Source: Pseudomonadaceae bacterium SI-3 | Lineage (GTDB): Bacteria; Pseudomonadota; Gammaproteobacteria; Pseudomonadales; Pseudomonadaceae | NCBI GenBank assembly: GCA_004010935.1 | Contig: CP026511.1 | Location: 2,604,001-2,668,000, forward strand | DNA length: 64,000 nt | Direction of reading: 5' to 3' | Shown: positions 1-15,205 of the stretch, piece by piece | How positions within the stretch are numbered: the stretch's first letter is position 1 | Layout: each line of letters begins with the position of its first letter | The notes under the pieces: model-generated | Told to the model about the DNA's origin: nothing | What the model saw: only the letters and a program-made list of their open reading frames with translations | Databases searched by the model: none | Made by a program: the position numbers and the translations under genes

Positions 1-572
1 GGCGGGTCATGGCCGGGTTCGGCGCCTCGGCTTTACTGGCGTTGCCGCTGGGGCTGTATATCGGCACCTATCGCCCGGTGCAGGCTTTTCTCGAACCTCT
101 GACCGACTTCATCCGCTACATGCCGGCGGTGGCCTTCATACCGCTGGTGATGTTGTGGGTGGGCATCGACGAAGGCTCGAAGGTGCTGATCATTTTTATC
201 GGCACCTTCTTCCAGATGGTGTTGATGGTCGCCGAAGACGTCCGCCGCGTGCCGATGACCCAGATCGAGGCCGCCCAGACCATGGGCGCCAATCGCAGCG
301 AAGTCGTCAAGCTGGTGATCCTCCCGTCTGCGCGACCGGCAATCCTCGACACCCTGCGCATCACCTGCGGCTGGGCCTGGACCTACCTGGTCGTTGCCGA
401 GCTGGTCGCCGCCAATTCGGGCCTCGGCTACGCCATTCTCAAGGCTCAGCGCTACATGCACACCGACAAGATCTTCGCCGGCATCCTGCTGATCGGGCTG
501 ATCGGCTTGCTCACCGACCAGGCCTTCCGCTGGCTTTCCCGCCGCGCCTTCCCGTGGAGGACACAAGCATGA
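1..572 (+). CDS. ABC transporter permease, SsuC/TauC type (5' end outside window)
   Basis: Inner-membrane permease of an ABC importer of the sulfonate/nitrate/taurine (SsuC/TauC) class. The reading frame is already open at the first bases of the window, so the N-terminus lies upstream; the ATG at 9 is probably internal. What remains is about 190 residues with four to five hydrophobic segments. The cytoplasmic EAA loop (EAAQTMGAN followed by VILPSARP) contacts the ATPase. The stop overlaps the ATPase start as ATGA, so the two are translationally coupled. A binding protein of the matching NMT1 class is encoded at 16667-17740, which hints that the solute is a nitrogen compound, but the true partner may lie upstream. 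Family assignment is firm; substrate is unknown. Confidence 0.9.
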   Translation, partial: RVMAGFGASALLALPLGLYIGTYRPVQAFLEPLTDFIRYMPAVAFIPLVMLWVGIDEGSKVLIIFIGTFFQMVLMVAEDVRRVPMTQIEAAQTMGANRSEVVKLVILPSARPAILDTLRITCGWAWTYLVVAELVAANSGLGYAILKAQRYMHTDKIFAGILLIGLIGLLTDQAFRWLSRRAFPWRTQA

Positions 573-1408
573 CCGACGCCAAGATTTGTATTCAGCAGGT
601 AGGCAAAACCTTTATCAGCGACACGCGCGAGGTCGAGGCGCTGCAATCGGTCAGCCTGGATGTGCGCCCAAACGAATTCATCACCTTCGTCGGCGCCTCG
701 GGCTGCGGCAAGTCCACCCTGCTGCGCATCATTGCCGGCCTGGAAACCCTGAGTTGCGGCGAAATCCTGCTCGATGGCAACCCCGTGGATGGCCCCGGCG
801 TCGACCGCGCGATGGTCTTTCAGCACTACAGCCTCTACCCATGGCTTACGGTCATGAAAAACATCAAGTTCTGCCGCCAACTCAAAGTGATTTCTGACAC
901 CGTGCGTGGCGATGGCGACGTTGAAACTGCTAGTGGGCGAGCCGACGCCCTGCTCAGCCTGATGGGCCTGACGAACTTTGCCGATGCCTTTCCAAGCCAG
1001 CTGTCCGGCGGTATGCAGCAGCGCGTGGCCATCGCCCGCGCGTTGATGCCCAAGCCAGCGACATTGCTGATGGACGAACCCTTCGGCGCACTGGACGCCC
1101 AGACGCGTGAGGTGATGCACGACCTGATCCGTCACGTGCACAAGCTCGAGAAAACCACAATTCTGTTCGTCACCCACGATGTTGAAGAAGCCATCTACCT
1201 CGGCAGTCGTGTGGTGCTGATGGCGCCACGGCCAGGGCGAATCGATTCCATCTATGAGGTGCCGCTGCCAGCGCAGCGCAACCAAGACATGAAGCTGTCG
1301 CCCGAATTCACCGCCCTGAAACGCGAGATCCTGACGCGCATCAGGGAGACGTCAGGCATGCAGACCGATCTCGATCAATTGGCCAAACTCACGGCCATTG
1401 CCGGGTAA
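569..1408 (+). CDS. ABC transporter ATP-binding protein, SsuB/TauB type
   Basis: ATPase subunit (279 aa) energising the preceding permease. Walker [10 protein letters not shown] is at residues 42-50, the Q-loop at VFQHYSLYP, the signature LSGGMQQ at 145-151, Walker B LLMDEP at 166-171 and the H-loop histidine at about 203. The start at 569 is chosen because it overlaps the permease stop (ATGA) and gives normal family length; the frame is open further upstream only as a shadow of the permease. A stretch around residues 104-125 is longer than in typical SsuB. The last third of this gene and about 95 bp of downstream DNA recur at 3346-3763, and the last 70 codons recur at 10278-10487. This is the only intact copy. 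Confidence 0.93.
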
Positions 1409-1797
1409 TCTATCGACTGGCCGCGCGAACTCCCCGCCTGCGTGGCCCGTTTGACCTGATGCTTAACGCGTCATCCGACAATGGACGCCACTGACCAGGA
1501 GCGGTCATTCGGGACCGAGCGTAACCTCAAGCATCACGAAGGCTGTTACCCGCAGCAGGACCTATTGGCTCCGTGATCGGCGGAGTGATCCTGACCGTAA
1601 TCTTCGCCGGCTATATCCTGTTTGCGTGGCTGGGTCATCGCATTGGATGCTCGCCTAATTGCGCCAAGCGCGGACACATGACGAATGTTGGCACCAAGAA
1701 ACCGTGGATGATCGTCTATTGTGATAGTTCATGTAGGAGGTTTGATTCGCTGCCAGGCGGTATAGGGTCTAGCAGACAATTTGAGTGGAGCTTTGAT
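1409..1797. other. Intergenic region with a hairpin and a membrane-like coding remnant
   Basis: The first ~95 bases match the DNA downstream of the partial ATPase copy at 3667-3763. Around 1481-1509 is an imperfect palindrome (arms AATGGACGC and GCGGTCATT). From about 1576 a short open stretch could encode a hydrophobic segment (VIGGVILTVIFAGYILFAW). It is in frame with the downstream kinase but has no ribosome binding site, and looks like debris of a membrane protein gene. No convincing complete gene is visible. Confidence 0.5.
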
Positions 1798-2859
1798 ATG
1801 TCTGAAGTCCAGCCAAAATCCGAAAAGCAGGAAGACGCTGAGGCCGCCGTCGACAATTTCCGAAAGGACCTTGGACCTTTTGTTGTTGCTGCGGAGACGA
1901 CACGCATGGCAATGCTTTTTACCGACGCGAAGGCACCCGGCGACCCGATCGTTTACGCAAACGACAGCTTTCTAAAGCTGACTGGGTACGATCGGAACGA
2001 GGCATTGGGCCAGAGTTTCAATTCCTTACTGGAACAGCGCGTCGACCCTGAGGTCATCGAGAAGATCAAGTCCGAATTCGAGAAAAGTGAGAATCACGAC
2101 AATAACCTGGATATCGACTATAACCGGAAGGACGGCAGTACGTTGTTCGTCTCGGTTTTCATAAGCCCAGTGCGGGACGAGAGCGGCCAGGTCATGCAGC
2201 ATTTCGTTTCGTTTATCGATATAACCAAGCATAAAGAGGCGCAAGAAAAGTCAAAGATGTTTATCGATGAGCTTAATCATCGCGTAAAAAACACTTTAGC
2301 CACGGTGCAGGCGATAGTCTGGCAGTCGTTCAAAAAATCATCCGATACCCATATTGTTCGAGAGTCTATCGATTCGCGCCTCTTTGCTCTTTCTCGATCG
2401 CATGATCTCCTTACCCGTGAGCATTGGAACGGCGTGAGTTTTCGCGATTTAGTGAACGAGGTATTGGAGCCGTTTGGGGTCGCAGGCGATGGCGCGGCCC
2501 GCTTCGTCATCGCGGGTCGAAATGTCCGCATTTCACCGCAGACGGCGCTGGCGCTTGGTGTCGCGCTCAACGAACTCGCGACAAACGCCCTGAAGTACGG
2601 TGCCTTATCCAACGAAGCAGGATGCGTCCTGATCGAGTGGGCGGTCGCGCCCATGCCGGCGGGCAACAGGCTGATTATTCGTTGGCAGGAAAAGGACGGC
2701 CCAACTGTGGCTCCGCCGTCGCGCAAAGGGTTCGGTTCGCAGGTGATCGAGCGTGGGTTGTGTCATGAGCTGGCAGGGACCGTGCATCTCGACTTTCCGG
2801 AAGAAGGCGCGGTTTGCACGATCGATATTCCGGCACCCGATCGTGCCCATGTCGAGTAA
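1798..2859 (+). CDS. HWE-family sensor histidine kinase with LOV-like PAS domain
   Basis: Soluble sensor kinase of 353 aa with no membrane segment. A PAS/LOV-like domain at about residues 25-145 (NDSFLKLTGYDRNEALG, later ISPVRDESG and FVSFIDITKH) precedes an HWE transmitter. The transmitter has its H-box ELNHRVKNTLATVQAI at about 158-173 (His161), the N-box LNELATNALKYGAL, the W-x-E motif in IRWQEKDGP, and a glycine-rich lid in RKGFGSQVIERGL. The residue aligned with the photoactive LOV cysteine (NCRFLQ motif) is Phe74 in GQSFNSLLE, so a flavin-cysteinyl adduct cannot form. The ATG at 1798 is chosen for GTGGAG just upstream and normal length. It overlaps the response regulator start by 11 bp, forming a two-gene module between two copies of the ATPase 3' end. 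Confidence 0.88.
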   Translation: MSEVQPKSEKQEDAEAAVDNFRKDLGPFVVAAETTRMAMLFTDAKAPGDPIVYANDSFLKLTGYDRNEALGQSFNSLLEQRVDPEVIEKIKSEFEKSENHDNNLDIDYNRKDGSTLFVSVFISPVRDESGQVMQHFVSFIDITKHKEAQEKSKMFIDELNHRVKNTLATVQAIVWQSFKKSSDTHIVRESIDSRLFALSRSHDLLTREHWNGVSFRDLVNEVLEPFGVAGDGAARFVIAGRNVRISPQTALALGVALNELATNALKYGALSNEAGCVLIEWAVAPMPAGNRLIIRWQEKDGPTVAPPSRKGFGSQVIERGLCHELAGTVHLDFPEEGAVCTIDIPAPDRAHVE

Positions 2860-3217
2860 GCCGCTTGCCGGTCGGCGCATCTTGGTCGTCGAAGACGAGT
2901 TGATGATTTTGATGCTCGTCGAGGACATGCTGGCCGAACTCGGGTGTACCTCCATCACGTCAGCCGCAACTGTTGAGCAAGCACTTGCTTTGATCGACGA
3001 GAAAGACTTCGACGCCGCGACATTGGACGTCAACCTACACGGGATCAAAAGCTTTCCCATCGCCGACGCGCTCATCGCGCGCTGCGTACCCTTCATGTTT
3101 GCAACCGGATTTGGCGCGGAGGGAGTACCGGCCCGATATAACGAGCAGACTGTCCTAAGAAAGCCGTTCCGCTACCAAGACGTATCAGACCAATTCCAGC
3201 GCCTCTTAAACTGCTAA
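2849..3217 (+). CDS. Single-domain response regulator (receiver only)
   Basis: Receiver protein of 122 aa without an output domain. The acidic pair is in VVEDE (residues 14-16), the predicted phosphoacceptor is Asp60 in ATLDVNL, the switch Thr is in FATGFG and the conserved Lys is in LRKPF. It starts inside the kinase gene (11-bp overlap), so the two are almost certainly partners. The sequence closely resembles the receiver at 19839-20201 (shared SFPIAD and FATG stretches), so the two kinase/receiver pairs are paralogous. Output must be by protein-protein contact or phosphotransfer. The target is not visible. Confidence 0.88.
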   Translation: MSSKPLAGRRILVVEDELMILMLVEDMLAELGCTSITSAATVEQALALIDEKDFDAATLDVNLHGIKSFPIADALIARCVPFMFATGFGAEGVPARYNEQTVLRKPFRYQDVSDQFQRLLNC

Positions 3218-3345
3218 ACAGCAGCCCTTGGTCCGCGCCAACGATGAGGCGGTGCCTGCGATCTACTCAATGAAGCGCAGGAGCGTGATCTTTGGCAGCG
3301 CAAATAAAGCGGCCGGTGTCCGATAAACCAATACGTCCCCTTTTC

Positions 3346-3763
3346 CACTGAACGCCCAGACGCGTGAGGTGATGCACGACCTTATCCGTCACGTGCACAA
3401 GCTCGAGAAAACCACGATTCTGTTCGTCACCCACGATGTTGAAGAAGCCATCTGCCTCGGCAGCCGTGTGGTGCTGATGGCGCCAGGTCCAGGGCGAATC
3501 GATTCCATCTATGAGGTGCCGCTGCCAGCACAGCGCGACCAGGACATGAAACTTTCGCCCGAATTCACCGCGTTGAAACGCGAGATCCTGGACGCGCATC
3601 AGGGAGACGTCAGGCATGCAGACCGATCTCGATCAACTGGCCAAACTCACGGCCATTGCCGGCTAATCCATTGCCTTGCCGTGCGATCTCTCCACCTGCG
3701 CGGCCCGTTTGACCCGATGCTTAACGCGGCATCCGAGAATGGCCGCCATCGGCCAAAAGCGGC
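3346..3763 (+). pseudogene. Partial, frameshifted duplicate of the ABC ATPase 3' end (copy B)
   Basis: This segment repeats positions 1089-1505: the last ~105 codons of the ATPase gene plus about 95 bp downstream. Homology begins abruptly at CACTG (3346), inside the Walker B/D-loop region, so no ATP site can be formed. One extra G after REIL (CTGGACGCGC versus CTGACGCGC) shifts the frame. Without the shift the tail would again read [16 protein letters not shown]. Several substitutions separate it from the intact gene, so the duplication is not recent. It closes the HWE-kinase module and opens the next one. Confidence 0.9.
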
Positions 3764-4080
3764 CACTAATTGCCATCAAACTCTTGGCAATTAACAGCAG
3801 GAAAAGCATTATGGAAACAACTGCTCACGCGCAGTCCCATCTTCGGCGGCATGGATGCCTTGCTTATTTCATACAAGCATTCATTCCTCCCACCTATGGC
3901 GACCTGCTGTGAAGCGCGGGCTTATGCCGCATTTGGCTATAACGGACTTATAGCGCGTTCGATATAACGTCGCAGCAGAAGGGAGTGAAAGATGCATAAG
4001 ACACTGATCTGCAAGTGAAAACTCAATATTGTTAGCGGAATGTTAGGCTGCGTATTAGTCGAGCGTTCGGTCTAATCACT
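3764..4080. other. Left flank of the integron array (no gene seen)
   Basis: About 320 bp between the truncated ATPase copy and the first cassette. Short open frames here lack ribosome binding sites and family resemblance. A small palindromic element ending near 3770 (GGCCAAAAGCGGCC region) resembles in inverted orientation the element at 7556-7586 on the other side of the array. The sequence just before 4081 (AATCACT followed by GTTATGC) is positioned like the crossover end of an attI site. No integrase gene or fragment is recognisable on either strand. Confidence 0.45.
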
Positions 4081-4146
4081 GTTATGCGCAAACACACTTA
4101 AACCAAACCATCAAATAGCTTAACAACAATGACAACCATCTCCCAC

Positions 4147-4602
4147 ATGAAAAAACTACTCTGCTCCATTTTAATTTTAAGCAGTCCTATTTGCTCAGCT
4201 GAAACAAATGCTTTCAGAATTGAGTGCACTGCAAATTTTCTAGGCAAGGAAACAAAGGTAGCCTTCGAGTACAACTTAAAATATCCAAAGACTTTCGGAG
4301 TCGGATACGGACCCCGATCGAAAAGCGAATCATTAGTAGCTTACGATTTGGTAGAAATTGAAAAGAAAAGGATTGAAGGCACAGACATTGAATACCTAGC
4401 CATTTATTACAATAACAAACCATATAACGAAGTCGACTATCCAAATCAAAAAACTATTACCCAGAACAAGCTAAGCTTCTTCCATGATTCAACCCTATCG
4501 CTTCATAGCGCAAAATTAAGCATCGACAAATCCAAGCTTGAATGGGCTGAAAACAACAGTGATGAATCATATAGAAACTGTATTAGCATTGGAGTCTGGT
4601 AG
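4147..4602 (+). CDS. Cassette 1: small predicted secreted protein, unknown function
   Basis: Protein of 151 aa starting MKKLLCSILILSSPICSA, a clear Sec signal peptide with likely cleavage after CSA; the mature part would be periplasmic or, if the Cys is used, membrane-anchored. An in-frame ATG 18 bp upstream (4129) is possible; neither has a good ribosome binding site, which is common for cassette genes. The mature region is polar, rich in Lys, Tyr and Asn, with two cysteines (ECTANF near its start and RNCISIG near the end) that could pair. I recognise no family. The gene is followed by its own attC site. Confidence 0.7.
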   Translation: MKKLLCSILILSSPICSAETNAFRIECTANFLGKETKVAFEYNLKYPKTFGVGYGPRSKSESLVAYDLVEIEKKRIEGTDIEYLAIYYNNKPYNEVDYPNQKTITQNKLSFFHDSTLSLHSAKLSIDKSKLEWAENNSDESYRNCISIGVW

Positions 4603-4685
4603 TATTTAAAAAATTTATCTCGCACAAAACCAATCAACGAACCGCTAAAATTCAAATAACAAGTGAACTTACTTTGGCGCCAAGA

Positions 4686-4761
4686 GCATAACAATCGGTT
4701 CAAATCGCTCGCTCCGCTCGCTGGGAAGGGCTAAAGCCCGCCCCTTAACCAAACGTTAAGT
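4686..4761 (+). repeat. attC site of cassette 1
   Basis: 76-bp attC. R'' is GCATAAC (4686-4692), L'' GGTTCAA (4697-4703), L' TTAACC (4745-4750) and R' GTTAAGT (4755-4761). L'' has one unpaired C relative to L', the extrahelical base that orients attC recombination. The central arms contain GCTCGCTCCGCTCGC and GGGCTAAAGCCC hairpins. It is nearly identical to the attC at 6880-6955. The R'' box pairs with the first bases of this cassette. Confidence 0.9.
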
Positions 4762-4776
4762 GTCATTGGAGTCGCA

Positions 4777-5679
4777 GTGCAAAACGTATATGCAGAAATT
4801 ATTATTAGGGACGTTGATGACTTCTATCAGTACCTGAAAAAATCTAACTACTTTCGGAATAGCTTAACATTTCGAGGGCAAATGGACTGTGATTGGCCAA
4901 TCGCATCTGGAATAGAGCGTAAGATGAGGCCTTATTTGAACGAAAGGCATATCATAGGTGATTACGAAGAAAATAAAATACTAGAAATCCAGCGTCGAGC
5001 CCATACATTAATCCGGAATAATATTCCTGCAAGCGATGATTATCTTGAGTGGCTCGCGTTGTTACAACATCATGGCGCTAGAACTAGATTAGTTGATTTT
5101 TCTCGATCTATCTTCGTCGCATGCTATTTCGCTACAAGGTACGATGCTAAATCTAATTGTGATGCTGCTGTTTGGGGTATTCATTTAGGAAAGTTAGAGC
5201 GTTTTAAAATGAGAAAAATATATTCCGCTCTAGAAATTCCTTCAGGAATCTCGGTTCATGAAAAAGATCGAATTATTGCGAAATACGCGATTACCAAAAG
5301 ACCTGATTTTAAAGGAGTCTCAATTCTTTATCCCTTTAGACAGAACCAAAGGCTATTTGCCCAGCAAGGCGAGTTTTTGGCTCCTCTAAACATAAATAGA
5401 TCCTTTATGGATAACCTGTCTGAAGTGTTTCTTGGTGATTGTGATACCGAAGTTAAAGATGGCTTTTGTGACTTTGAGGCCCCCTATAAGCGTGGCTATA
5501 TTGACGAGTTTAGTAGTGATGAGCTTGTGAAATATATAGGGGTTGTGAAATTCATAATACCGGAAAAATTTCACAAAGGCCTACGCGTAGTTTTAGAACA
5601 CATGAACATTCAGACGGAAAGCCTATTCCCAGATTTCGAGGGTGCAGTTCAAGCACTAAATCATGACTACTATGTGTAA
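4777..5679 (+). CDS. Cassette 2: FRG-domain protein
   Basis: Cytosolic protein of 300 aa. The FRG domain is recognisable from LTFRGQMDCDWPIASG at about residues 29-45 and LQHHGARTRLVDFSRS followed by FVACYFA at about 93-115; the domain is named for its Phe-Arg-Gly motif, which is present. Its biochemical function is not established, but FRG proteins occur often in mobile and defence-rich contexts. The GTG start is supported by TTGGAG six bases upstream and lies 22 bp inside the cassette. The stop at 5677-5679 directly precedes the attC. Base composition is AT-rich, unlike the host genes. A role in phage defence or stress is possible, but inferred only from context. Confidence 0.82.
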   Translation: MQNVYAEIIIRDVDDFYQYLKKSNYFRNSLTFRGQMDCDWPIASGIERKMRPYLNERHIIGDYEENKILEIQRRAHTLIRNNIPASDDYLEWLALLQHHGARTRLVDFSRSIFVACYFATRYDAKSNCDAAVWGIHLGKLERFKMRKIYSALEIPSGISVHEKDRIIAKYAITKRPDFKGVSILYPFRQNQRLFAQQGEFLAPLNINRSFMDNLSEVFLGDCDTEVKDGFCDFEAPYKRGYIDEFSSDELVKYIGVVKFIIPEKFHKGLRVVLEHMNIQTESLFPDFEGAVQALNHDYYV

Positions 5680-5681
5680 GC

Positions 5682-5742
5682 ACTTAACAAAGGCGTCAAT
5701 TAGGACGCTCGCAAGCTCGCGCCTATTACGCCGGCGTTATGT
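5682..5742 (+). repeat. attC site of cassette 2
   Basis: 61-bp attC: R'' ACTTAAC (5682-5688), a central imperfect palindrome (AGGCG...CGCCT with GCTCGCAAGCTCGC), and R' GTTATGT (5736-5742). R'' extended by one base (CACTTAAC) is the exact complement of GTTAAGTG at the cassette's left end. Its central sequence differs from the attC sites of cassettes 1 and 3, so the cassettes have different histories. Confidence 0.87.
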
Positions 5743-5757
5743 GTCAAGGAGAGTTCA

Positions 5758-6876
5758 GTGGATGAGGTAGACAAAAAATATGGCGCTATTTTGGTCGATA
5801 CATCAATCTTTGATAACCACGCACTGAAGCTTGAGAAAGGTTTATTGGGTAAGCTCGCGCAATTCAAAAAAAGCCCAATTGAATATATCTTCCCCGACGT
5901 AATAAAGAACGAAGTTAAAAGTCATCTAGAAAATAAAATAAAGATTTCTCGATCCGCACTAGAAAAAGCGCTGAACGATGCCGGAGACCATCTGTTTTTT
6001 GAAGGCAGCGAATTAAACGACGCAAAAAAAATCCTCATCGACAGTAAAGAAATTGAGGGGCTTGCCGAGAGCCGCGTTGAACAATTCATAGAATCTACAG
6101 GCGCACTCGTTCTTGAAACAGGAAATTTCGTGTCAGTCTCAGATCTGCTTATTAGTTATTTCTCTAACAAGCCACCATTTGCTGAGACCGGGAAAAAGAA
6201 AAATGAATTCCCTGATGCGATAGTCCTAATGGCCGTCGAAGCTTGGGCGGAGCAGAATGATATTGCAGTGCTTGCAGTCGCAAAGGATGGTGACTGGCAA
6301 AATTACTGTGAAAGCTCCGCTAGAATTGACTACCAAGAAGATTTTTCCCGAGGGCTAGAACACTTCAACAGAGAAAATGCTCCTTATGCGTTATTAGCGA
6401 ATATTGAATCTGCATTAAATTCCGGAACAGCTGATCAATTTCTTTCGTCTATAGGCTCTTGCCTTCAGTCTGTCCTTGATGGGTTCACTCCAGATCAAGA
6501 AGCTGACTCTCATCTTTATTGGGAGCCTGAAGGTAGCCATGGATGGTTTAAAGATTTTGAGTTGCTAGGCCACGAATTTCGGATAATTGATAAAGACGAT
6601 GATTGGGTAGTATTGGAAGCCCTTTCCAATATAACAGTCGAAGCCGAAGGCGAATTTTCACTGTCTATGTATGACTCCATTGATAGAGATCACGTGCATA
6701 TGGGCGGTGTAACAGTAACAGTCACCGAAGAATTTGAGTCTGAAATATTGATTACGATATCGGGCAACCTAGATGGCCCGATTAAAGAGCTTGCCATAGA
6801 TGAGGTCGAGGTTGTAAGTCCTATAAAAACAATTCATTTCGGAACCATTGAACCATATTACGATGATTACGAGTAA
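5758..6876 (+). CDS. Cassette 3: PIN-like (DUF4935-type) domain protein
   Basis: Protein of 372 aa. The first ~200 residues look like a PIN nuclease fold: ILVDTSIF near the N-terminus (Asp about 14), a conserved acidic residue in the FPDVIKNEV helix, EFPDAIVLMAV at about 156, and LAVAKDGDW at about 178. These give the usual set of metal-binding acidic residues. The C-terminal ~170 residues are acidic with beta-rich character (VEAEGEFSLSMYD; VTVTVTEEFESE) and match nothing I know. GTG start with AGGAGAG upstream. PIN nucleases are commonly RNases of toxin-antitoxin or defence systems; no antitoxin gene accompanies it, so a self-contained function is more likely. Activity is inferred. Confidence 0.75.
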   Translation: MDEVDKKYGAILVDTSIFDNHALKLEKGLLGKLAQFKKSPIEYIFPDVIKNEVKSHLENKIKISRSALEKALNDAGDHLFFEGSELNDAKKILIDSKEIEGLAESRVEQFIESTGALVLETGNFVSVSDLLISYFSNKPPFAETGKKKNEFPDAIVLMAVEAWAEQNDIAVLAVAKDGDWQNYCESSARIDYQEDFSRGLEHFNRENAPYALLANIESALNSGTADQFLSSIGSCLQSVLDGFTPDQEADSHLYWEPEGSHGWFKDFELLGHEFRIIDKDDDWVVLEALSNITVEAEGEFSLSMYDSIDRDHVHMGGVTVTVTEEFESEILITISGNLDGPIKELAIDEVEVVSPIKTIHFGTIEPYYDDYE

Positions 6877-6879
6877 GCC

Positions 6880-6955
6880 ACATAGCAACTGGTTCAAATC
6901 GCTCGCGCCGCTCGCTGGGACGGGCTAAAGCCCGCCCCTTAACCAAACGTTAGCC
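6880..6955 (+). repeat. attC site of cassette 3
   Basis: 76-bp attC nearly identical in its core to that of cassette 1 (GGTTCAAATCGCTCGC..., GGGCTAAAGCCC, CTTAACC). R'' is ACATAGC (6880-6886), one mismatch (A to G) from the ACATAAC expected from the cassette start. R' is GTTAGCC (6949-6955). The near-identity with attC1 fits the homogeneity seen in sedentary chromosomal integrons. Confidence 0.86.
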
Positions 6956-6969
6956 ATTACGAGAATAAT

Positions 6970-7464
6970 GTGACCACTGACGAACTAAGAGTCAATAACT
7001 TCATTGACTCACTGAAGCTTTCTCAAAGGATGTTTAACCTTGGGATGCTGATTTCTTTTTTGGCAATTTTTGTAGCTTTTAACCCCGAGGGAGTTGGGCA
7101 AGCAAAAATACCAATTATTGATATAAATATAGACTCGAGGGAACGCTTTGTTTCGATTTCGGCATTTTTCTTTTTAGTTACAGGCGTTTATATGAATTTT
7201 GCAGTCAAGCGCTGCTGTTCATTAATAACAAAAATTGAAAATCAAGAATTTGCAGATGCCGCGAAAAGCTATCCATCGATAGTTAATTCAAGCTTTCTTT
7301 ACACAATAATCATGATTGGATCTCTTGCTGGGGTTTGGGCTGTCGCCATAACCGAGACTTACAACATAAAAGCACTTTATTCTGTAATATTGGCAAATAT
7401 AGTTATTACACCATATATTCATGCTGCGCGAAGCAGTAAAAAAATAACACCCACACATGGCTAA
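6970..7464 (+). CDS. Cassette 4: small integral membrane protein, unknown
   Basis: 164-aa protein with four predicted membrane segments: LGMLISFLAIFVAF at about 26-39, FVSISAFFFLVTGVYMNFAV at about 56-75, YTIIMIGSLAGVWAVAI at about 110-126 and LYSVILANIVITPYI at about 136-150. N- and C-termini are charged (C-terminal SSKKITPTHG). I recognise no family. The GTG start at 6970 begins 20 bp after the cassette boundary with little ribosome-binding sequence. The stop codon lies inside the R'' box of the attC, typical of compact cassette genes. Confidence 0.72.
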   Translation: MTTDELRVNNFIDSLKLSQRMFNLGMLISFLAIFVAFNPEGVGQAKIPIIDINIDSRERFVSISAFFFLVTGVYMNFAVKRCCSLITKIENQEFADAAKSYPSIVNSSFLYTIIMIGSLAGVWAVAITETYNIKALYSVILANIVITPYIHAARSSKKITPTHG

Positions 7465-7517
7465 CAATGCGCTCACTGAGACCGGCTAAAGCCGGCCCTT
7501 TAGCTTAATCGTTATCC
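7459..7517 (+). repeat. attC site of cassette 4 (end of array)
   Basis: 59-bp attC with R'' GGCTAAC (7459-7465), central palindrome CCGGCTAAAGCCGG, and R' GTTATCC (7511-7517). R'' is the exact complement of GTTAGCC at the cassette start. No further attC pairing with GTTATCC (GGATAAC) is found downstream, so the array ends here. Confidence 0.87.
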
Positions 7518-7712
7518 GAACAAAAGTGAGCCGCCCCTTGTTCCTCCGTCACCCCGTGAATGTCCGCTTTTGGCCGAAAGCAGACTTTCAGGACTTTGTA
7601 AGCCGGAAGCAACAGCGCTTACCAGCCACCTACCGAAGCCAGCCGTTCATACCGACCGGGGCGGTCGCTCCGGACGGGGGACTTTGTAGATCGCAGAATC
7701 AGCGCGTCTCAC
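7518..7712. other. Right flank of the integron array with a palindromic element
   Basis: Between the last attC and the cyclase gene. Positions 7556-7586 carry a hairpin (arms GTCCGCTTTT and GAAAGCAGAC around GGCC) related, inverted, to the one at about 3737-3770 left of the array. A 71-codon open frame across this stretch owes its openness to this repeat and is not a credible gene. Confidence 0.5.
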
Positions 7713-10097
7713 TTAAGGTTGGGCTATCGCAGGTAGCTTGAAGGTGTTGCGTCCGTTTCTTTTTGCCTCGTACATAGACTGATCAGCCACGTGCAACAGG
7801 GAATCCAAGTCAAGCCCATGGTAGGGATATATTGCGATCCCAATGCTAGTCGACAGGTTGAGGTGCAGCCCAGGCAGCACTAATTCGGCACGCATTGCTT
7901 CGATAATAGACTCCGCAATTCGCTGAACATCCTCGTCGCGACTGAGTTCGCCAAGAACAACTACGAATTCATCGCCTCCAGTGCGAATCACTGTGTCGAT
8001 CTGCCTCACCGCCCCTGATATGCGTTGGGCTGCCGCCTTCAGCACCTCATCTCCAATCTGGTGACCATGTTGATCATTGATCTGCTTGAAATGGTCCAAG
8101 TCGAGCAGCATGACTCCCACGCGCTGATTGTTACGCATGGCTCTGTTTATCGCCATGTTCATTCGGTCGTGCATTAAGTTCCGGTTTGGTAACCCGGTCA
8201 GAGGGTCATGAAGTGCTAGGTGCCGAATCTGATCTTCAGTGCGTTTGCGTTCAGTGATGTCATAGGCCATGTAAACAAGGCCAGTGGCCTGACTGTCAGC
8301 GTTACGGATGACACTGACCTTTACGCAGATTGGAATTCGCTTTCCGCTCTGGTGCACATATGTCCATTCCGCCTCTTTGCCTTCATCCCGCAACGGTTCA
8401 TTCAAAATGAGATCCGCCGGACTTTTAAGCTGACCCAGTTCCTCGCTCAGTTTCGCGCATCGCTCGGATAGCTCTATGGGATCATGAAGTTGCAAGATGC
8501 TCGTGCGCACTAGATCGCTCTCGGCGTAGCCGACAAGTTGTACACCGGCAGGGTTAACGGCTGTCACAATGCCCGCGAGGTCTGTAGACATGATCGCGAA
8601 AGGGGAATGTAAGATGATTGACTGACTTTGGAGGCTAGCTTGCAACGCTTGTCGCTGAGCGGCATGTAGATCAGTTAAGTCGGCAACTATGATGATGACG
8701 CTTCGTATGCCTGACCTTACAGATACTGTTGCGGAAAGGCTCAGTTCAACTACCTCGCCACCGCTATCTGGACGATAGATGTCAAAGCGTGCACTGGCTC
8801 GCTGGCCGCTCCGAAGATCTGCTAGCAATTTTTTCTGCATCTCATCGAAACTAAGCAGATGCATAAAGGGTTGATTTAATCTGGACAATCCGAGCCAACC
8901 AAACATGCGTTCAGCTGCTTCGTTGCAGGTCTGAATCGCCATCTCAGGATTACAGTCCGTAACGACAATACCCTCCGCTGCGCTTTCGACTATTGAGCGT
9001 GTTGCTGCTTCGGAATCTTTGAGCGCTATAGTCATATGATCAGCCAACGCTTGGGCACGAGCACGCATCGTCAAAGCTGACGACAACAAGGCGCTGAGTA
9101 GAATGCTGAGCACGATTCCGGCGCCTAGTATCGTAGGGGAGCGGCTTGCGGGCATAGCGACATCAAACGCAGGCAGGGTAACTAAGCGGAGCTTCCAAGT
9201 GCGCTGGCCTACTACAATCAGAATGTCCTCATCGAATGCGGGCTTGTAGGACGGGATATCCGAAAGCACGTCGATACGTCGCTCGTATAAAAGTGCACCC
9301 TGAGCAGCCGAGTCACCGTCGAACAGCTGTAGAGCCATGTTACCGACCCGATTTCCTAAAGCCGCGTGCATCAGGTCTGGCATTCGAAACGCAGAATAGA
9401 CGAAGCCCTGAAGCGCCGCACGGCGGACTTCTACCGTCAGCGGAGCACTATCGTCTCGGTAGATTGGTTGAAACATGATAGTTCCGGGCTGTGGGTTCTC
9501 GCCTTCCTGAACAAGCCAAACTTTTCCGGATAACGCCGCGGCGCCGCCGTCACGCGCGGTTTCCATTGCGGCACGTCTAACCTCTTCAGAATACATATCG
9601 AAGCCGAAAGCCTTCAGATTCCTTCCCGAGAAGGGTTCCAGATACGCCACAGGCGTATGGAGATCCCTTACCCCAGACGGAATCACCGTGTAAGAGGGAA
9701 AGCCCTCCGCTCGAATGGCCTGTATATGCTGCTCCAAGTAATTTCCCGGAATCGCTGGCGTATAGCCAAGTCCTAACAACCCTGGATATCGATCCTGAAG
9801 CTGTAAGTGCTCCGCGAACTTTTTCCAGTCGCCTCGCTCGATTCCGCCGCGACTATAGAGATGGCTGCTCGCAGCCTGTAGCAAGCGCTCGTACTGCTTC
9901 ATTGCTTCGCCAATGTCGCGGGCGGTGTCGGACACTATGCGATCGAATCTCAGGCGGGCTGCTTCGGCCTCTTTGGATCGGACGCTTTGATAAGAAGCGA
10001 ATGTGATAGCAAGCCCAACCAGCAATGCAGCCAGAACAACGGCGATTCGGTGTCCATCAACCCAGCCAGCCATTGAGCGGAAAGCGCGTAACTTCAT
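7713..10097 (-). CDS. Membrane diguanylate cyclase, CHASE-PAS-PAS-GGDEF
   Basis: 794-aa c-di-GMP synthase. A membrane segment at about 17-38 precedes a periplasmic CHASE domain (about 70-300; FPSYTVIPSG, HTPVAYLEPF, GFDMYSEEVRRAAM, ALSGKVWLVQE). A second membrane segment (ILGAGIVLSILLSALLSSAL, about 325-345), two PAS domains (about 365-490 and 495-620) and a GGDEF domain (about 630-790) follow. The active-site motif is intact (RTGGDEFVVVL) and is preceded five residues earlier by an RxxD inhibitory site (RQID), so an active, product-inhibited enzyme is expected. The start MKLRAFRSMAGW fits the first membrane helix. It is transcribed against its neighbours and lies between the integron array and ATPase copy C, as part of the second inserted block. 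The CHASE ligand is unknown. Confidence 0.92.
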   Translation of the reverse strand: MKLRAFRSMAGWVDGHRIAVVLAALLVGLAITFASYQSVRSKEAEAARLRFDRIVSDTARDIGEAMKQYERLLQAASSHLYSRGGIERGDWKKFAEHLQLQDRYPGLLGLGYTPAIPGNYLEQHIQAIRAEGFPSYTVIPSGVRDLHTPVAYLEPFSGRNLKAFGFDMYSEEVRRAAMETARDGGAAALSGKVWLVQEGENPQPGTIMFQPIYRDDSAPLTVEVRRAALQGFVYSAFRMPDLMHAALGNRVGNMALQLFDGDSAAQGALLYERRIDVLSDIPSYKPAFDEDILIVVGQRTWKLRLVTLPAFDVAMPASRSPTILGAGIVLSILLSALLSSALTMRARAQALADHMTIALKDSEAATRSIVESAAEGIVVTDCNPEMAIQTCNEAAERMFGWLGLSRLNQPFMHLLSFDEMQKKLLADLRSGQRASARFDIYRPDSGGEVVELSLSATVSVRSGIRSVIIIVADLTDLHAAQRQALQASLQSQSIILHSPFAIMSTDLAGIVTAVNPAGVQLVGYAESDLVRTSILQLHDPIELSERCAKLSEELGQLKSPADLILNEPLRDEGKEAEWTYVHQSGKRIPICVKVSVIRNADSQATGLVYMAYDITERKRTEDQIRHLALHDPLTGLPNRNLMHDRMNMAINRAMRNNQRVGVMLLDLDHFKQINDQHGHQIGDEVLKAAAQRISGAVRQIDTVIRTGGDEFVVVLGELSRDEDVQRIAESIIEAMRAELVLPGLHLNLSTSIGIAIYPYHGLDLDSLLHVADQSMYEAKRNGRNTFKLPAIAQP

Positions 10098-10277
10098 GAT
10101 CCGACCCTAGGCGTGAGCGCAACGAAACTGTTGAAAGTAACGCTGTATCGACGCGGTCAGCAAAACGTGAAGATGATTTACCCCGCTTACGACTAATGGC
10201 ATTGTTTTGCGCAGCAATGGCAGGCCGCTTCAAGGTCGCCTGACGCAAGTTGAGGGGCCCGTTAGACGTTCTCTAAG

Positions 10278-10487
10278 GGCAGCTATCGTGTGGTGCTGAT
10301 GGCGCCACGGCCTGGGCGCATCGATTCTATCTATGAGGTGCCGCTGCCAGCGCAGCGCAACCAAGACATGAAGCTGTCGCCCGAATTTACCGCGTTGAAA
10401 CGCGAGATCCTGACGCGCATCAGGGAGACGTCAGGCATGCAGACCGATCTCGACCAGCTCCAGAAACTGACAGCGATCGCGGGTTAG
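10278..10487 (+). pseudogene. Partial duplicate of the ABC ATPase 3' end (copy C)
   Basis: Repeats the last ~68 codons of the ATPase gene ([20 protein letters not shown] to LQKLTAIAG), in frame but with no start, no ATP-binding motifs and an abrupt 5' boundary near GGCAG (10278). It is closer to the intact copy than copy B is in that it has no frameshift. After the stop it diverges from copies A and B, so this copy probably marks the ancestral downstream junction of the transporter operon. Confidence 0.9.
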
Positions 10488-10494
10488 CATCCAC

Positions 10495-10516
10495 GGTGGG
10501 CTGAAGCCCACCCTAC
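10495..10516. repeat. GGTGGGCTGAAGCCCACC hairpin
   Basis: Perfect palindrome GGTGGGCTGAAGCCCACC followed by CTAC, directly after ATPase copy C. A degenerate relative lies at about 10566-10605. The same element recurs at 28837-28858 and as an inverted pair at 57793-57848. It is a dispersed intergenic repeat that probably acts as a transcription terminator. Confidence 0.75.
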
Positions 10517-10625
10517 TATCGACCGGGTTGTGCAGCTGTCCCCTTCAGTACCCGCTGAGCAGCCTGCGGTGGGCTAAAGCGGGACGCCGCCAGGCCCACC
10601 CTACCGGTCCAGATCGCATCGTCGT

Positions 10626-13600
10626 TCAGCGCGGCATCATCCGCACGCCGGAGAGCTCGGCGAGCGGTCCCGGCCGGCCCAGGTGGTAACCCTGCACGTA
10701 GTCAACGCCGATATCCTGCAGGCACTCGAGGATAGCCGCTGACTCAACGAACTCCGCCACGGTACTCAGCCCCATTTCATGGCCGATGTTGTTGATCGAC
10801 GCCACCATTGCCCGCGCGATGGGATCGCGATCAATGTCCCGAACGAAACTGCCGTCGATCTTCAGATAATCCACCGGCAGGGTTTTGAGGTACCCGAACG
10901 ACGACAGGCCAGAGCCAAAGTCGTCCAGTGCGAAGCTGCAACCCACAGCCTTGAGGCTGTTCATGAAGGTCATGGCACGGCTGAGGTTGGCGATCGCCGC
11001 GGTTTCGGTGATTTCAAAACACAGGCAATTGGCGGGGATCTGGTGACGCTCGATGGCCGACAGGACGAATTCGAGAAAGCTTTCCTCACCCAGCGAGGTT
11101 GCCGACAGGTTGATCGAATAATGCCCCAGCGACGCACCGGGACGACGACGTAGATCGCCGACCCATGCCAGGAAATTGCCGACCACCCAGCGATCCACCG
11201 CCGGTGCCAGATCGTAACGTTCAGCCGCGGGCATGAAGGCGCCGGGGGGAATGATGCTGCCATCCTCGCCCTGCATGCGTACCAGCACTTCATAGCGCTG
11301 CGAACCGTCGTCGCCTGCGGCACGCACGATCGGCTGCACGAACAAACGCAGCAGGTCGCCATCCAGTGCTTGCCGTAGCCGGTGCGTCCATTGCATCTCG
11401 CCGCGGCGTTCCATCAGCTGTTGGTCGTCCGCCTGATACACATGCACGCGGTTGCGACCGCCGTCCTTGGCCGCATAACAGGCACTGTCGGCAGCACCAA
11501 GCAAGGGGCCGAGCGTTTTCGCGTGCTCGTCGATGGCCACCAGACCGATGCTGGCGCCAACCGCGAAACTCTTGCCCTCCCAACTGAAGCGAAACTCGTC
11601 AACCGCGTGGCGTATGTCTTCGGCAATCCGCACCGCCTGAATCAACGAACACTCATTGAAGAGGATGCCGAACTCATCGCCGCCCAGGCGCGCCAGCAGA
11701 TCACTGCCCCGCACACGGCCTCTCAGTAGCTGACCCAGTTGGCGCAGCAGCTCGTCACCGGCGGCATGGCCGCAGGTGTCGTTCACCACCTTGAACTGGT
11801 CCAGGTCCATGTAGCAGAGAACATGCTCGCCACCGGTGTATTCGCGCAGCAGCGACTCGATCTGGCGCTCGAACGCGGAGCGATTGACCAGCCCGGTCAG
11901 GTTGTCGTGATTGGCCTGGAACGTCAGCTTGTGAGCCAGCTGGCGGGTGACCGTGACATCACGAAAGGTCAGCACAGTACCGATGACGGCACCCTCGGCG
12001 TCGCGGATGGGCGCAACCGCATCCTGTACAGCCAATTGCGTGCCATCAGGTCGATGAAGGATGCCCGGCGCACGCTCGGTGCGATCCTGACGGTCACTTC
12101 TGCGCCGAAGGCCGAGGCTGGCGGCATTGAGCAGCCGCGCACCGGTGGCCTCGTCGAATAGCTGGTAGACCTCGTCAAGCACCAGCCCCTGCGCGGCGGC
12201 CTGGCTCCAGCCAATCAGCCGCTCGGCGCTGGGGTTGAGATAGCGCACGCGCCCGGCCCTGTCGGTGGTGATCACGCCATCGCCGATGGAAGCGAGCGTG
12301 ACCTGGGCGAGCATTTTCTCCGCGAACAACTGCTCCTCGATCTGTCGGCGTTCGGTGATGTCTCGCACCATGCAAACGAAGGCGTCCTGCGGGCGGTTTC
12401 CCTGGCTGGCGGTCAGCTCCGCGGCAAACAACTCGCCGTCTTTACCGTGGAGCATCAATTCGGTTTTCAGCTCGCCGCCGGCTTCCGGCAACAGCGACGC
12501 ACTGTTGCCCACGACAAAACGTTGAAAGGGTTGCCCGACAATCTGCTCGGCCGGTAAACCGAACAGCCGCTCCGCGCCGGGGTTGCAGCTGGTCAGAATG
12601 CCGTCATGGCCATAGGTGACGATGCCGTCGCGGATGTCCCGCACGATGCTCTGCGTCTTCGCCACTGCGTGTTGCAGGGCACGGATCACCTTGTTGTATT
12701 GCTCGGCGATCTGCCCGACCTCGGTGAACGGCTCAACATCCACTTCGCGCTGGAACTGCCCCAGACGTTGGTGTTCAGCCATGGCGTCGAGCAGTTCGAT
12801 CAGTTCGGTGCGTGCGCCATGTTCGCTGACGTTCAATCCCACGCGCTCATCATCGGGGTTCACCCGCATCGGGTAGTACCGATTGATCAGCCGCAACAGC
12901 AGATAGGTGACGCCGAACGCCCAGACCGCGCAAACCAGCACGCCCTGCAACTGAACCATCAGTTGATCGAAGCGACTCAGGCCGGTGCCGAGCAGCAGCG
13001 GGTCACCACACAGCGCTACCGCCACAGTGCCCCACAAGCCAGCCGCCAGGTGAACCGGAACCGCGCCGACCGCATCATCGATGGCGCAGCGCACCAACAG
13101 CCGGTCTGCCAGCCACATCGCCAGGCCGCCGCCTGCCCCGATCAGCAGGGAGTCGGCAATGCTGACCGCATGAGCACTCGCGGTGATTGCCACTAACCCC
13201 GCCAGCATGCCGTTGAGCAACGCAACGGGCTCCACGTAGCCGTGCCGCCATTGCGATAACAGCATCGCCAACGCCATGCCAGCCATGCCTGCCACAACGG
13301 TATTGACGACGATTCCCGGCACGCGCCCATCGAAACTCAAGGTGCTGCCACCGTTGAAGCCGAACCAGCCGAACAGCAACAGCAAGCCGCCGAGCATCGC
13401 CAGTGGCAGGTTAGAGCCCGGCATGTTCTGTCGCAGCCATTTGCTATCGAAGCGGCCCGCGCGCGGGCCGATGACCATCACCGTTGCCAGCGCGATCCAC
13501 CCGCCTACGCCGTGCACCACGGTCGAGCCCGCAAAGTCGACAAATCCTTGCTGCGCGAGCCAACCCTGACCTTCACGCAAGGCGCCGCCCCATGCCCAAT

Positions 13601-14051
13601 GGCCGAACAAGGGGTAGATCAGACCAGCCGACAGCGCGGCGACGATCAGGTAGGCGTTGAAGCGCATACGTTCGGCGGCCGCGCCCGAAACGATGGTGGC
13701 GGCGGTCGTACAGAACATTGCCTGGAACAGGAAAAAAGCCAGCGGCCAACTGTCGTCGACCGCAAGTTCAAGCATGAACAGACCCGTGCCCATCACCCCG
13801 TCCTGACTGGTGCCGAACATAAGCGCGAAACCGAATGACCAATAGAGCAGCAAGGCGATGCACAGGTCAGCCATGTTCTTGGTCGCGACGTTGATGGCGT
13901 TCTTGCTTCGCGTCAGGCCGGCTTCCAGGCACAAAAACCCAATCTGCATGTTGAAGACCAGACCGGCGCACAGCACGACCCAGAGAATATCGATCGAGTC
14001 TTTCGGCATACGCATCCCATGGCAGGTGTCCGCAGAGGCGGTGGAAAGCAC
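10626..14051 (-). CDS. Ammonium transporter-PAS-PAS-GGDEF-EAL fusion
   Basis: 1141-aa protein joining an Amt/Mep ammonium-channel domain to c-di-GMP enzymes. Residues ~15-405 form the Amt domain with about eleven helices (QIGFLCLEAGLTRSKNA, VHGVGGWIALA, GWFGFNGGS). A linker and two PAS domains (about 455-690) follow. The GGDEF domain (about 700-860) has intact ARLGGDEFGILF, and the EAL domain (about 880-1130) has EVL instead of EAL, with EITETA, DDFGSG and KIDGSFV retained. It should sense or transport ammonium at the inner membrane and couple this to c-di-GMP turnover. The GTG start at 14051 is the longest; ATGs at codons 13 and 15 are possible. A sigma-54-type promoter sits just upstream, fitting nitrogen control. 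Confidence 0.92.
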   Translation of the reverse strand: MLSTASADTCHGMRMPKDSIDILWVVLCAGLVFNMQIGFLCLEAGLTRSKNAINVATKNMADLCIALLLYWSFGFALMFGTSQDGVMGTGLFMLELAVDDSWPLAFFLFQAMFCTTAATIVSGAAAERMRFNAYLIVAALSAGLIYPLFGHWAWGGALREGQGWLAQQGFVDFAGSTVVHGVGGWIALATVMVIGPRAGRFDSKWLRQNMPGSNLPLAMLGGLLLLFGWFGFNGGSTLSFDGRVPGIVVNTVVAGMAGMALAMLLSQWRHGYVEPVALLNGMLAGLVAITASAHAVSIADSLLIGAGGGLAMWLADRLLVRCAIDDAVGAVPVHLAAGLWGTVAVALCGDPLLLGTGLSRFDQLMVQLQGVLVCAVWAFGVTYLLLRLINRYYPMRVNPDDERVGLNVSEHGARTELIELLDAMAEHQRLGQFQREVDVEPFTEVGQIAEQYNKVIRALQHAVAKTQSIVRDIRDGIVTYGHDGILTSCNPGAERLFGLPAEQIVGQPFQRFVVGNSASLLPEAGGELKTELMLHGKDGELFAAELTASQGNRPQDAFVCMVRDITERRQIEEQLFAEKMLAQVTLASIGDGVITTDRAGRVRYLNPSAERLIGWSQAAAQGLVLDEVYQLFDEATGARLLNAASLGLRRRSDRQDRTERAPGILHRPDGTQLAVQDAVAPIRDAEGAVIGTVLTFRDVTVTRQLAHKLTFQANHDNLTGLVNRSAFERQIESLLREYTGGEHVLCYMDLDQFKVVNDTCGHAAGDELLRQLGQLLRGRVRGSDLLARLGGDEFGILFNECSLIQAVRIAEDIRHAVDEFRFSWEGKSFAVGASIGLVAIDEHAKTLGPLLGAADSACYAAKDGGRNRVHVYQADDQQLMERRGEMQWTHRLRQALDGDLLRLFVQPIVRAAGDDGSQRYEVLVRMQGEDGSIIPPGAFMPAAERYDLAPAVDRWVVGNFLAWVGDLRRRPGASLGHYSINLSATSLGEESFLEFVLSAIERHQIPANCLCFEITETAAIANLSRAMTFMNSLKAVGCSFALDDFGSGLSSFGYLKTLPVDYLKIDGSFVRDIDRDPIARAMVASINNIGHEMGLSTVAEFVESAAILECLQDIGVDYVQGYHLGRPGPLAELSGVRMMPR

Positions 14052-14081
14052 AGCACCTGGCGGCGCTGGCTTTTAGCTATT

Positions 14082-14097
14082 AGCCAGAACCGTGCCA
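14082..14097 (-). promoter_or_regulatory. rpoN-dependent: Sigma-54 (-24/-12) promoter for the Amt-GGDEF-EAL gene
   Basis: On the minus strand the sequence reads TGGCACGGTTCTGGCT. The TGGCACG -24 element is perfect and the -12 element is TGGC instead of TTGC; the GG and GC dinucleotides have the required 12-base offset. The predicted transcript would start about 20 bases before the GTG start. This fits NtrC-type nitrogen regulation. I did not find a confident NtrC enhancer. Confidence 0.65.
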
Positions 14098-14115
14098 GCC
14101 GTCCTAGCGCTCACA

Positions 14116-15138
14116 TCAGGACGCCAGCAGGTCATGCATGGCGGCGAAGACCTGCGCCATAGCCTGCGGACTGCGCCCCGGCCCGCCAGCGCAGTGGCCC
14201 CAGTCAGACTCAAGTACACGCAGCTCGGCGTTTGGCATCAACGAGGCTTCGTGTCGCGCGTCTTCAACGGTGAAATAGAGATCACTGCTGCTGGGCATGA
14301 TGATCGCCCGAGCAGAAAGCTGGGACAGCGCCTCGTCCAGGCTGCCAAACCCGGGCAGCGCGGACGGATCGGCTGACTGCCAGGTATCGAGCACGCAAAG
14401 CAGATCGTTGGCGTCCTGCTCCAGGTGGTCCTGTTCCCAATAATCGAGCAAGGCGTCGAGACTGGTGAAACCCAGCTCACGCCATAGCTCGGCGCGAAAG
14501 AACGCCTGCGAGTAAGCCCAGCCAGCGTACGCGCGGCCGAAGGCTCGCAAGCCGCGCTCGGGCGCCTCGATATAACGCCCACCCTGCCACGCCGAATCGG
14601 CCTGCAGAGCTGCCTTAACACCTTCAAGGAAGACGAAATTGTGCGGCCAGCAGCGCGCCGTGCAGCAAAACGGCAGGATGCGTTGCACCTTTTCAGGGAA
14701 CAACAATGCCCAGTAAAGCGCCTGCATCCCGCCCATGGACCAACCCGTCACCAAGTGCAATTGCCATGTTGGGCCAAACAGCTGGTCGAGCAACATGCGT
14801 TGCGCACGCACGTTGTCCGCCAGCGTTATGTGCGGAAATTCCGCGCCGCCCTGCCCTGCGGTGGCATTGCTCGGCGAGCTGGACCAGCCGGCACCGAACA
14901 GATTGGTCAACACCACGCAGTAGTCACCATTGGCCAGGGGGCTGCCTGCACCAAGCAGGGGCAGACTGCCCCAATGCGATCCACCGTAGTAGCTGGGAAT
15001 CAGCACGATGTTGTCTCGCTGTGCATTCGGCGAGCCGACGACCTGATAGCAGAGCCGCGCTTTCTGCAACGTCTGGCCGCTTTCAAGCGCTAGATCGCCC
15101 AGTTCGATGAGTCTTTTTTCCCTTTCTATCTCAAGCAC
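14116..15138 (-). CDS. Alpha/beta-hydrolase, homoserine O-acetyltransferase-like
   Basis: 340-aa alpha/beta-hydrolase of the MetX (homoserine acetyltransferase) superfamily branch. The nucleophile elbow is TGWSMGGMQALYWA at about residue 134, with an Asp in PSSSDLYFTVED and the His in SDWGHCAGG completing the triad. The early segment NIVLIPSYYGGSHWGSLPLLG resembles the oxyanion region of MetX proteins. True MetX proteins are about 370-380 aa, so this shorter relative may act on another ester or amide. It is divergent from the GlnT-type ligase gene and next to the Amt fusion, suggesting a nitrogen-scavenging role, but this is only context. Confidence 0.8.
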   Translation of the reverse strand: MLEIEREKRLIELGDLALESGQTLQKARLCYQVVGSPNAQRDNIVLIPSYYGGSHWGSLPLLGAGSPLANGDYCVVLTNLFGAGWSSSPSNATAGQGGAEFPHITLADNVRAQRMLLDQLFGPTWQLHLVTGWSMGGMQALYWALLFPEKVQRILPFCCTARCWPHNFVFLEGVKAALQADSAWQGGRYIEAPERGLRAFGRAYAGWAYSQAFFRAELWRELGFTSLDALLDYWEQDHLEQDANDLLCVLDTWQSADPSALPGFGSLDEALSQLSARAIIMPSSSDLYFTVEDARHEASLMPNAELRVLESDWGHCAGGPGRSPQAMAQVFAAMHDLLAS

Positions 15139-15205
15139 TTGCAGTTCCTCTGAGCAGCATTGGCGGGTGTCCCGGCAGGTCTTGCAGCAGCTTTTCTATA
15201 CACGC

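Follow-up and report, generated by a model that had tools for sequence, protein, structure and literature searches.

A locus with three copies of one ATPase gene end

We analyzed a 64,000-nucleotide stretch of Pseudomonadaceae bacterium SI-3 (C1:2604001-2668000 of G000, a 4.84-Mb genome in a single contig), called the window below. Near its start, the 3' end of a gene for an ATP-binding cassette (ABC) transporter ATPase occurs three times in one orientation, intact as copy A, frameshifted as copy B and truncated as copy C, and unrelated cargo lies between the copies. The order is A, genes for an HWE histidine kinase and a receiver protein, B, a cassette array, a diguanylate cyclase gene, C and a gene for an Amt fusion protein. 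An Rfam scan of window positions 1-16000 gave no matches. The features related to the gene end are the following:

3-572, + strand: ABC transporter permease, running off the window start (Pfam BPD_transp_1, E 1e-27)
590-1408, + strand: ABC ATPase, intact, whose 3' end at 1089-1408 is copy A (open reading frame, Pfam ABC_tran)
1409-1507, + strand: DNA 3' of A in common with B, 81% (sequence comparison)
3307-3345, no strand: 39-bp filler at the joint between the HWE block and B
3346-3666, + strand: copy B of the ATPase 3' end, frameshifted (sequence comparison)
3667-3765, + strand: DNA 3' of B in common with A (sequence comparison)
10286-10487, + strand: copy C of the ATPase 3' end, 5'-truncated, its last 30 bp from another allele

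The three copies are the only matches to the gene end in the whole genome. Copy B is 95% identical to A over 322 bp (E 6e-143) and C is 96% identical to A over 171 bp (E 3e-75), which excludes chance likeness. The segments are related, as proposed in a preliminary description of this DNA that had called A intact, B frameshifted and C truncated. One extra base near position 3590 disrupts the reading frame of B, which also carries four missense differences. Downstream of the stop codon, A and B remain alike for 99 bp more (to 1507 and 3765, respectively), close to the 95 bp estimated earlier, and sequence comparison found none of this common DNA next to C, again as described. The start first given for C, 10278, did not hold, homology being secure only from about 10286-10288. 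Ahead of C, six bases, GGCAGC, match B, and three extra bases, TAT, intervene. The 5' breakpoints are unlike, corresponding to position ~1090 of the window for B and ~1209 for C. A search within the window found no source for the 39-bp filler in front of B. The last ~30 bp of C are divergent, with nearly all differences at synonymous positions; over the equivalent of 1380-1408, a short stretch, C is 82% identical to two relatives (G026 and G031) and 64% identical to A or B. An assembly error is an unlikely origin of the copies, because they differ by ~4-5% and the genome is one contig.

The genes located between the copies and to the right of C, outside the cassette array, are:

1573-2859, + strand: PAS-HWE histidine kinase, start codon uncertain (Pfam)
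2753-3217, + strand: receiver-domain gene, start codon uncertain (Pfam Response_reg)
7713-10097, - strand: CHASE-PAS-GGDEF diguanylate cyclase, in a block for which the genus offers no close relative at the DNA level (Pfam and genus comparison)
10626-14051, - strand: Amt-PAS-GGDEF-EAL fusion (Pfam)

Pfam matches and open reading frames agree with the earlier placement of the HWE pair between A and B and of the cassette array and diguanylate cyclase between B and C. The GC content is 54.5% in the HWE block, 41.3% in the unit that holds the cassettes (U2, described below) and 53.4% in the cyclase block, with 61.2% for the permease and ATPase genes. The HWE block (1495-3306) is 96% identical over 1813 bp to another locus of genome G035; the G035 genes that flank the ATPase locus are 74-86% identical to their SI-3 counterparts.

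Divergence of the gene ends

We compared the three gene ends codon by codon, given that about 25% of differing codons are expected to be synonymous under neutrality. A and B differ at 15 codons, 11 of them synonymous (P 1e-4), A and C at 17, of which 16 are synonymous (P 2e-9), and B and C at 21, with 18 synonymous (P 7e-9). For comparison, A and its counterpart in G039 differ at 26 codons, 23 of which are synonymous. The predominance of synonymous differences indicates that B and C were functional genes, mainly under selection, while they diverged, with truncation coming later. They are thus alleles and not tandem duplicates decaying in place.

The ATPase locus in related genomes

The genus comparison set comprised 56 genomes, 33 of which, G000 included, match the ATPase gene end, and the surroundings and neighboring genes were mapped in all 32 relatives with a match. 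The ATPase gene is joined straight to abh, which we take to be a homoserine acetyltransferase-like gene, in 17 of the 32 (gap, 15-51 bp) and to the Amt fusion gene in seven (gap, 15-285 bp). The site is thus empty, i.e., abh or Amt alone follows the ATPase gene, in 24 relatives. Five others carry different cargo at the gene end, and three are uninformative, neither neighbor being found within the stretch: G009 and G024, where the gene is ~76% identical, and G049, which has an orphan end of 88 codons. Both arrangements anticipated by the preliminary description, transporter genes without the cargo and a recurrent hotspot with other cargo, therefore occur. The other cargo is as follows:

G039: 2.8 kb
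G031: 4.4 kb, ahead of Amt
G026: same genes as in G031, on two contig ends
G001: 1.1 kb
G012: 0.5 kb, including a piece of Amt

The empty sites and the other cargo indicate that the natural right neighbor of the gene end is abh, Amt or variable cargo. C-Amt is therefore a natural junction, the ATPase end meeting Amt in seven relatives. A second near-full copy of the gene end was found in none of the 32 relatives, only in G000; the additional matches in G009, G024, G030 and G049 are short and weak. G039, the nearest relative by its flanks, has a single copy.

The 4.4-kb gene group between ATPase and Amt in G031 (L136 8552-12525) and G026 (L134, L135) includes, by eye, ATP-grasp, alpha-E, transglutaminase and protease-like genes, with no copy of the gene end. 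In G049 (L154 / L196 1492-1849), the orphan ATPase 3' end is accompanied by the palindromic site S, described next, at an unrelated place; there is no other close match to the ATPase gene end in that genome.

A palindromic site at the block boundaries

The likeness between A and B ends at S, a ~30-bp palindrome centered on GGCC and located ~70 bp past the ATPase stop codon. Its form is AATGNCYGC-NNNN-GGCC-NNNN-GCNGNCATT, with an altered center in A and in G039. Three sites (positions 1480, 3738 and 7559) were found in the window by a full 30-base scan:

1480-1509, no strand: S(A), center altered to GACC
3738-3767, no strand: S(B), whose right arm forms the left end of U2, the cassette unit described below
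7559-7588, no strand: S at the right end of U2

Scanning one shuffled window at this threshold gave 0 sites; relaxing the threshold gave one. A first pattern for S, with other spacing, had produced 8 matches versus 18 for its control, i.e., no excess; the revised palindrome pattern occurs at 3 places in G000 and its control at 0. Four unlike sequences start at S, namely, the HWE block, U2, the G039 cargo and the G049 flank. The preliminary description had delimited the cargo without recognizing S and U2, which coincide with the boundaries next to A and B. In G039, the same ~110 bp adjoin the ATPase end on its right, an S-like site with altered center and the other cargo come next, and one further S-like site precedes abh. 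In G035, the HWE block has an S-like sequence at its left edge and a right S-like site ~105 bp past the point where the match to G000 ends.

IS1182-family elements adjoin the GGCC center of S-like sites, as seen at L193 (767-2378) and at one end each in L191, L293, L194 and L195. GGCC flanks both ends of the L193 element, like a 4-bp target duplication.

A cassette unit without an integrase

The stretch from S(B) to the third S site is occupied by U2, with the following features:

3751-7575, + strand: mobile cassette unit U2, with inverted ends GGCC-AAAAGCGG
3751-4084, + strand: conserved 334-bp leader of U2, the cassettes diverging right after it
4129-4602, + strand: cassette gene, no Pfam match (open reading frame)
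4687-4758, + strand: attC-like repeat
4777-5679, + strand: FRG-domain cassette gene (Pfam), PADLOC candidate defense family PDC-S15 (E 3e-35)
5758-6876, + strand: PIN-domain cassette gene (Pfam)
6881-6952, + strand: attC-like repeat
6970-7464, + strand: cassette gene, no Pfam match (open reading frame)
7464-7520, + strand: attC-like site, with a shorter match to resident attC sites

Matches to the U2 leader were found in 14 of 398 family genomes. The left end lies at the same GGCC base in 12 of these 14, with 9 different left flanks, and the right end is GGCC as well in all 5 genomes where it is within reach. Past the CTGTTA of the leader, the 12 genomes split into six different first cassettes. 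Copies of U2 that are ~99.5-100% alike are present in G033, G006, G005, G041 and the S. stutzeri plasmid p1_PM101005 (G050 contig 2). By BLAST, 3 of 4 tested attC-like sites match the attC repeats of the resident integron, and the site at 5672-5750 gave no match to them. No match to an integron integrase gene, intI, was obtained in the window at E 1e-5; the resident intI is at C1:3855398, ~1.24 Mb from the window. The recurrence of the same ends at different genomic places shows U2 to be a discrete mobile unit; its open reading frames and Pfam matches include no integrase gene.

Such mobile, integrase-less cassette carriers, with the conserved 334-bp leader and inverted GGCC-ARAAGCGG ends, are spread over several species and extend to another genus of the family. 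The loci of this type are:

window 3751-7575
L191 5850-8376
L195 2202-6043
L298-L308

The two remote relatives of the leader, in G201 and G198 (L317, L318), are followed by genes that look restriction-like by eye.

A 723-bp recombinase element in S-like sites

In G033 and G006, U2 adjoins a gene for a 206-residue tyrosine recombinase (Phage_integrase, E 3e-19, residues 42-190). Relatives of this protein at E <= 1e-50, some of them partial, were found in 34 of the 56 genus genomes; G000 has two full-length genes (93% and 84%) and two partial ones. Examination covered 27 of the 30 recombinase loci returned, three partial ones being left out. The element end GGCC-GGTTAGCG is present in all 27, and both ends were found in 21, 723 bp apart in 16 and 576-727 bp apart in five; the remaining 6 of the 27 showed no recognizable second end. 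The consensus of 42 outer arms, ARAAGCGGCCANT, places the 723-bp element at the center of S-like sites. In a set of 48 flanks from 24 elements, 14 pairs share a flank that starts at the GGCC joint, 8 on the same side of the recombinase gene and 6 on opposite sides, and one common flank extends for 933 bp, up to the next GGCC. Because several loci duplicate one another almost exactly, the 42 arms and 14 flank pairs are not all independent. The flank pattern looks like exchange of modules at S, on which the recombinase may act.

The 723-bp element consists almost solely of the recombinase gene, and the same neighbors occur on either side of it (L239-L265, L291, L293). A stretch of at least 1.4 kb (L291 4734-8738; flanks of L250, L251 and L257) is 99.9-100% identical in three genus genomes. 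Its start coincides with the GGCC joint, to one side or the other of the recombinase element, and in the Pseudomonas aeruginosa plasmid pPA942-IMP45 it leads into LysR-ptxD-phn genes.

Proposed history of the locus

We propose, with a probability of roughly 0.6, that the locus consists of three allelic versions of the region 3' of one ATPase gene, stacked by two additive acquisitions. In the gene order, each gene end reads as the left neighbor of the DNA on its right, A of the HWE block, B of U2 and the cyclase, and C of Amt. The two additive integrations of the preliminary description fit best with the empty sites and the other cargo found in relatives; what changes is that the gene ends go with the DNA on their right, so that the blocks are allelic.

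We infer the order of events, the donors, the homologous and illegitimate joints and recombinase action at S as follows. The ancestor would have had an ATPase gene with a C-type end followed by Amt. DNA of a related strain (ATPase end B, S, U2, cyclase) would then have entered by a homologous joint in the ATPase gene, its far end being joined inside the resident ATPase 3' end, which would survive as C. The second acquisition would have brought the ATPase end A, S and the HWE block of another strain by the same route, shifting B to the right. Each acquisition would leave an orphan end, and one whole ATPase gene would carry the newest end. The donors would have had cargo after the ATPase gene because S, located there, is a joint where mobile units come and go, probably through the small tyrosine recombinase.

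Several observations weigh against this history. None of the genus genomes examined, none of which is conspecific, has only one or two of the blocks, and the ATPase-S-cyclase junction was not seen in them. The joint between the HWE block and B contains the 39-bp filler and no clean microhomology, and that between the cyclase and C has the six matching bases followed by the three extra ones. No switch of donor identity was detected along the permease and ATPase genes, in a comparison that was uninformative. By third codon positions, the A-B bias (10 of 16; P 0.016) is weaker than by codons, and the orphan end with S in G049 implies that such pieces can arise by other routes.

Homology-assisted illegitimate recombination, linked to transformation in the preliminary description, is a plausible mechanism, with the reservation that the joints offer no clean microhomology. 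The same product, a whole gene, cargo and a truncated copy, would result from one crossover, if circles carrying a 5'-truncated ATPase end and cargo integrated in Campbell fashion. PMC3240628 explains partial duplications of the lacZ end, 109-950 bp long, in this way, and excision at S could supply circles. This route, which competes with the mechanism and not with the stacking, requires circular DNA that includes part of the ATPase end, and no such circle was seen. By sequence alone it is indistinguishable from the history outlined above, and we regard it as unlikely, at something like one chance in five.

Less probable still is that recombination at S by the small tyrosine recombinase did the whole work, bringing the HWE block plus B into S(A) as one S-bounded unit and U2 as a second, with the ATPase ends as passengers. 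S(A), S(B) and the site at 7559 do lie exactly at block boundaries, in G035 S-like sites flank the HWE block at another locus, G049 combines an orphan ATPase end with S, and G000 has two full-length recombinase genes. However, this leaves unexplained how the HWE block became joined to a truncated ATPase end, and it does not account for C, which has no S beside it. Furthermore, the center of S(A) is altered, and the HWE block in G000 lacks the ~105 bp that carry the right S of G035.

If the ATPase 3' region had been duplicated in tandem where it stands, and cargo inserted between the copies later, this would account for their common orientation and for the likeness of A and B over 99 bp downstream. 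Such a duplication is weakened by the mostly synonymous differences, unexpected for truncated copies decaying in place, and C has different downstream DNA and the tail of another allele. As G039, closest at the flanks, also lacks a second copy, we give this explanation very little credence. Genomic islands whose integrase targets and restores the ATPase 3' end are hardly conceivable: the gene-end copies at block borders resemble att repeats at first sight, but this idea is contradicted by the variable breakpoints (equivalents of ~1090 and ~1209, and 1154 in G049) with no constant core repeat, and by the lack of an integrase gene among the block open reading frames and Pfam matches and of an integron-integrase match in the window.

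Possible role of S

Within the preferred history of stacked alleles, S could serve as recombination site for a modular system not described so far, a tentative idea to which we give somewhat less than even odds. The system would comprise the 723-bp element with its 206-residue tyrosine recombinase and nonautonomous S-bounded modules, i.e., the HWE block, the integrase-less U2, a ~936-bp module and the stretch that leads into phosphite-oxidation genes. These would insert, invert and exchange at GGCC joints in the genus and its neighbors. The ATPase end would bear such a site, transformation would stack the alleles, and the orphan ends would record the acquisitions.

Other data speak against such a system. 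With one mismatch allowed, the revised palindrome pattern occurs at 32 places in 22 of the 56 genomes and the control at 14, so that some matches must be due to chance and single matches prove little. The half-site expression is unspecific; its matches also include two places in the window unrelated to S, and three shuffled windows yielded 0, 3 and 5. The remote leader relatives in G201 and G198 (73%) have no GGCC end. Site and recombinase co-occur for close copies and not for three homologues of 55-64% identity (Escherichia, Methylocystis and Sphingobium plasmids), which have no S half-site beside the gene. Finally, S may simply be a favored target of several elements, since an IS1182-family element also sits at its GGCC.

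If the modular interpretation of S is correct, there would be a second, integron-like cargo system able to carry integron cassettes. If the S-bounded units are real modules, the integrase-less carrier in particular suggests how arrays end up far from integrons. The locus itself would be a readable record of successive acquisitions, each with the donor's piece of the anchor gene, and the order and donors could therefore be deduced from one genome.

Comparison with known systems

Modules between short recombination sites are likewise shuffled in the Acinetobacter dif (pdif) system, where an IS family also targets the sites. Here, by contrast, the presumed recombinase is a 206-residue protein encoded in its own 723-bp element, and S, with its GGCC center, is presumably unlike dif. 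CALIN, which we take to designate cassette arrays without an integrase, resemble the array described here in having attC-like sites and cassettes, with no integrase in the window. Unlike CALIN, the array is housed in a discrete unit that has ends and a conserved 334-bp leader of its own and that occurs at varied locations across several species. A literature search of incomplete coverage, based on titles and the beginnings of abstracts, returned no description of S, the 723-bp element or the cassette unit.

A 2003 study by Meier and Wackernagel, cited in PMC3240628 and PMC5361080, reportedly described homology-facilitated illegitimate recombination in Pseudomonas stutzeri. PMC3240628 mentions this process in P. 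stutzeri, and in E. coli it attributes partial gene-end duplications to single crossovers with circles instead. The P. stutzeri process likewise combines one homologous and one illegitimate joint, in the same bacterial group; its usual product, according to PMC3240628, is an insertion with a deletion of similar size, whereas at the SI-3 locus the recipient DNA was kept and partly duplicated.

For the immunity arrays of type VI secretion systems (T6SS), stacking by successive one-sided homologous integrations has been proposed in PMC5361080. According to that paper, successive acquisition of T6SS effector-immunity modules in Vibrio cholerae and the displacement of Rhs C termini cited there both anchor incoming DNA by homology in a conserved upstream part. 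As in the history proposed here, the incoming DNA is attached at its other end by an illegitimate joint, and the older downstream genes and displaced 3' ends move back into an array. In contrast to those systems, the anchor here is a transporter ATPase gene whose product is hardly altered, the stacked parts are unrelated cargo and not immunity genes, and the insertion site that takes part is a palindrome. What has been put forward for toxin-immunity loci would extend to an ordinary metabolic locus: the stacking idea is already in print for T6SS arrays, and the metabolic anchor gene is what is new here.

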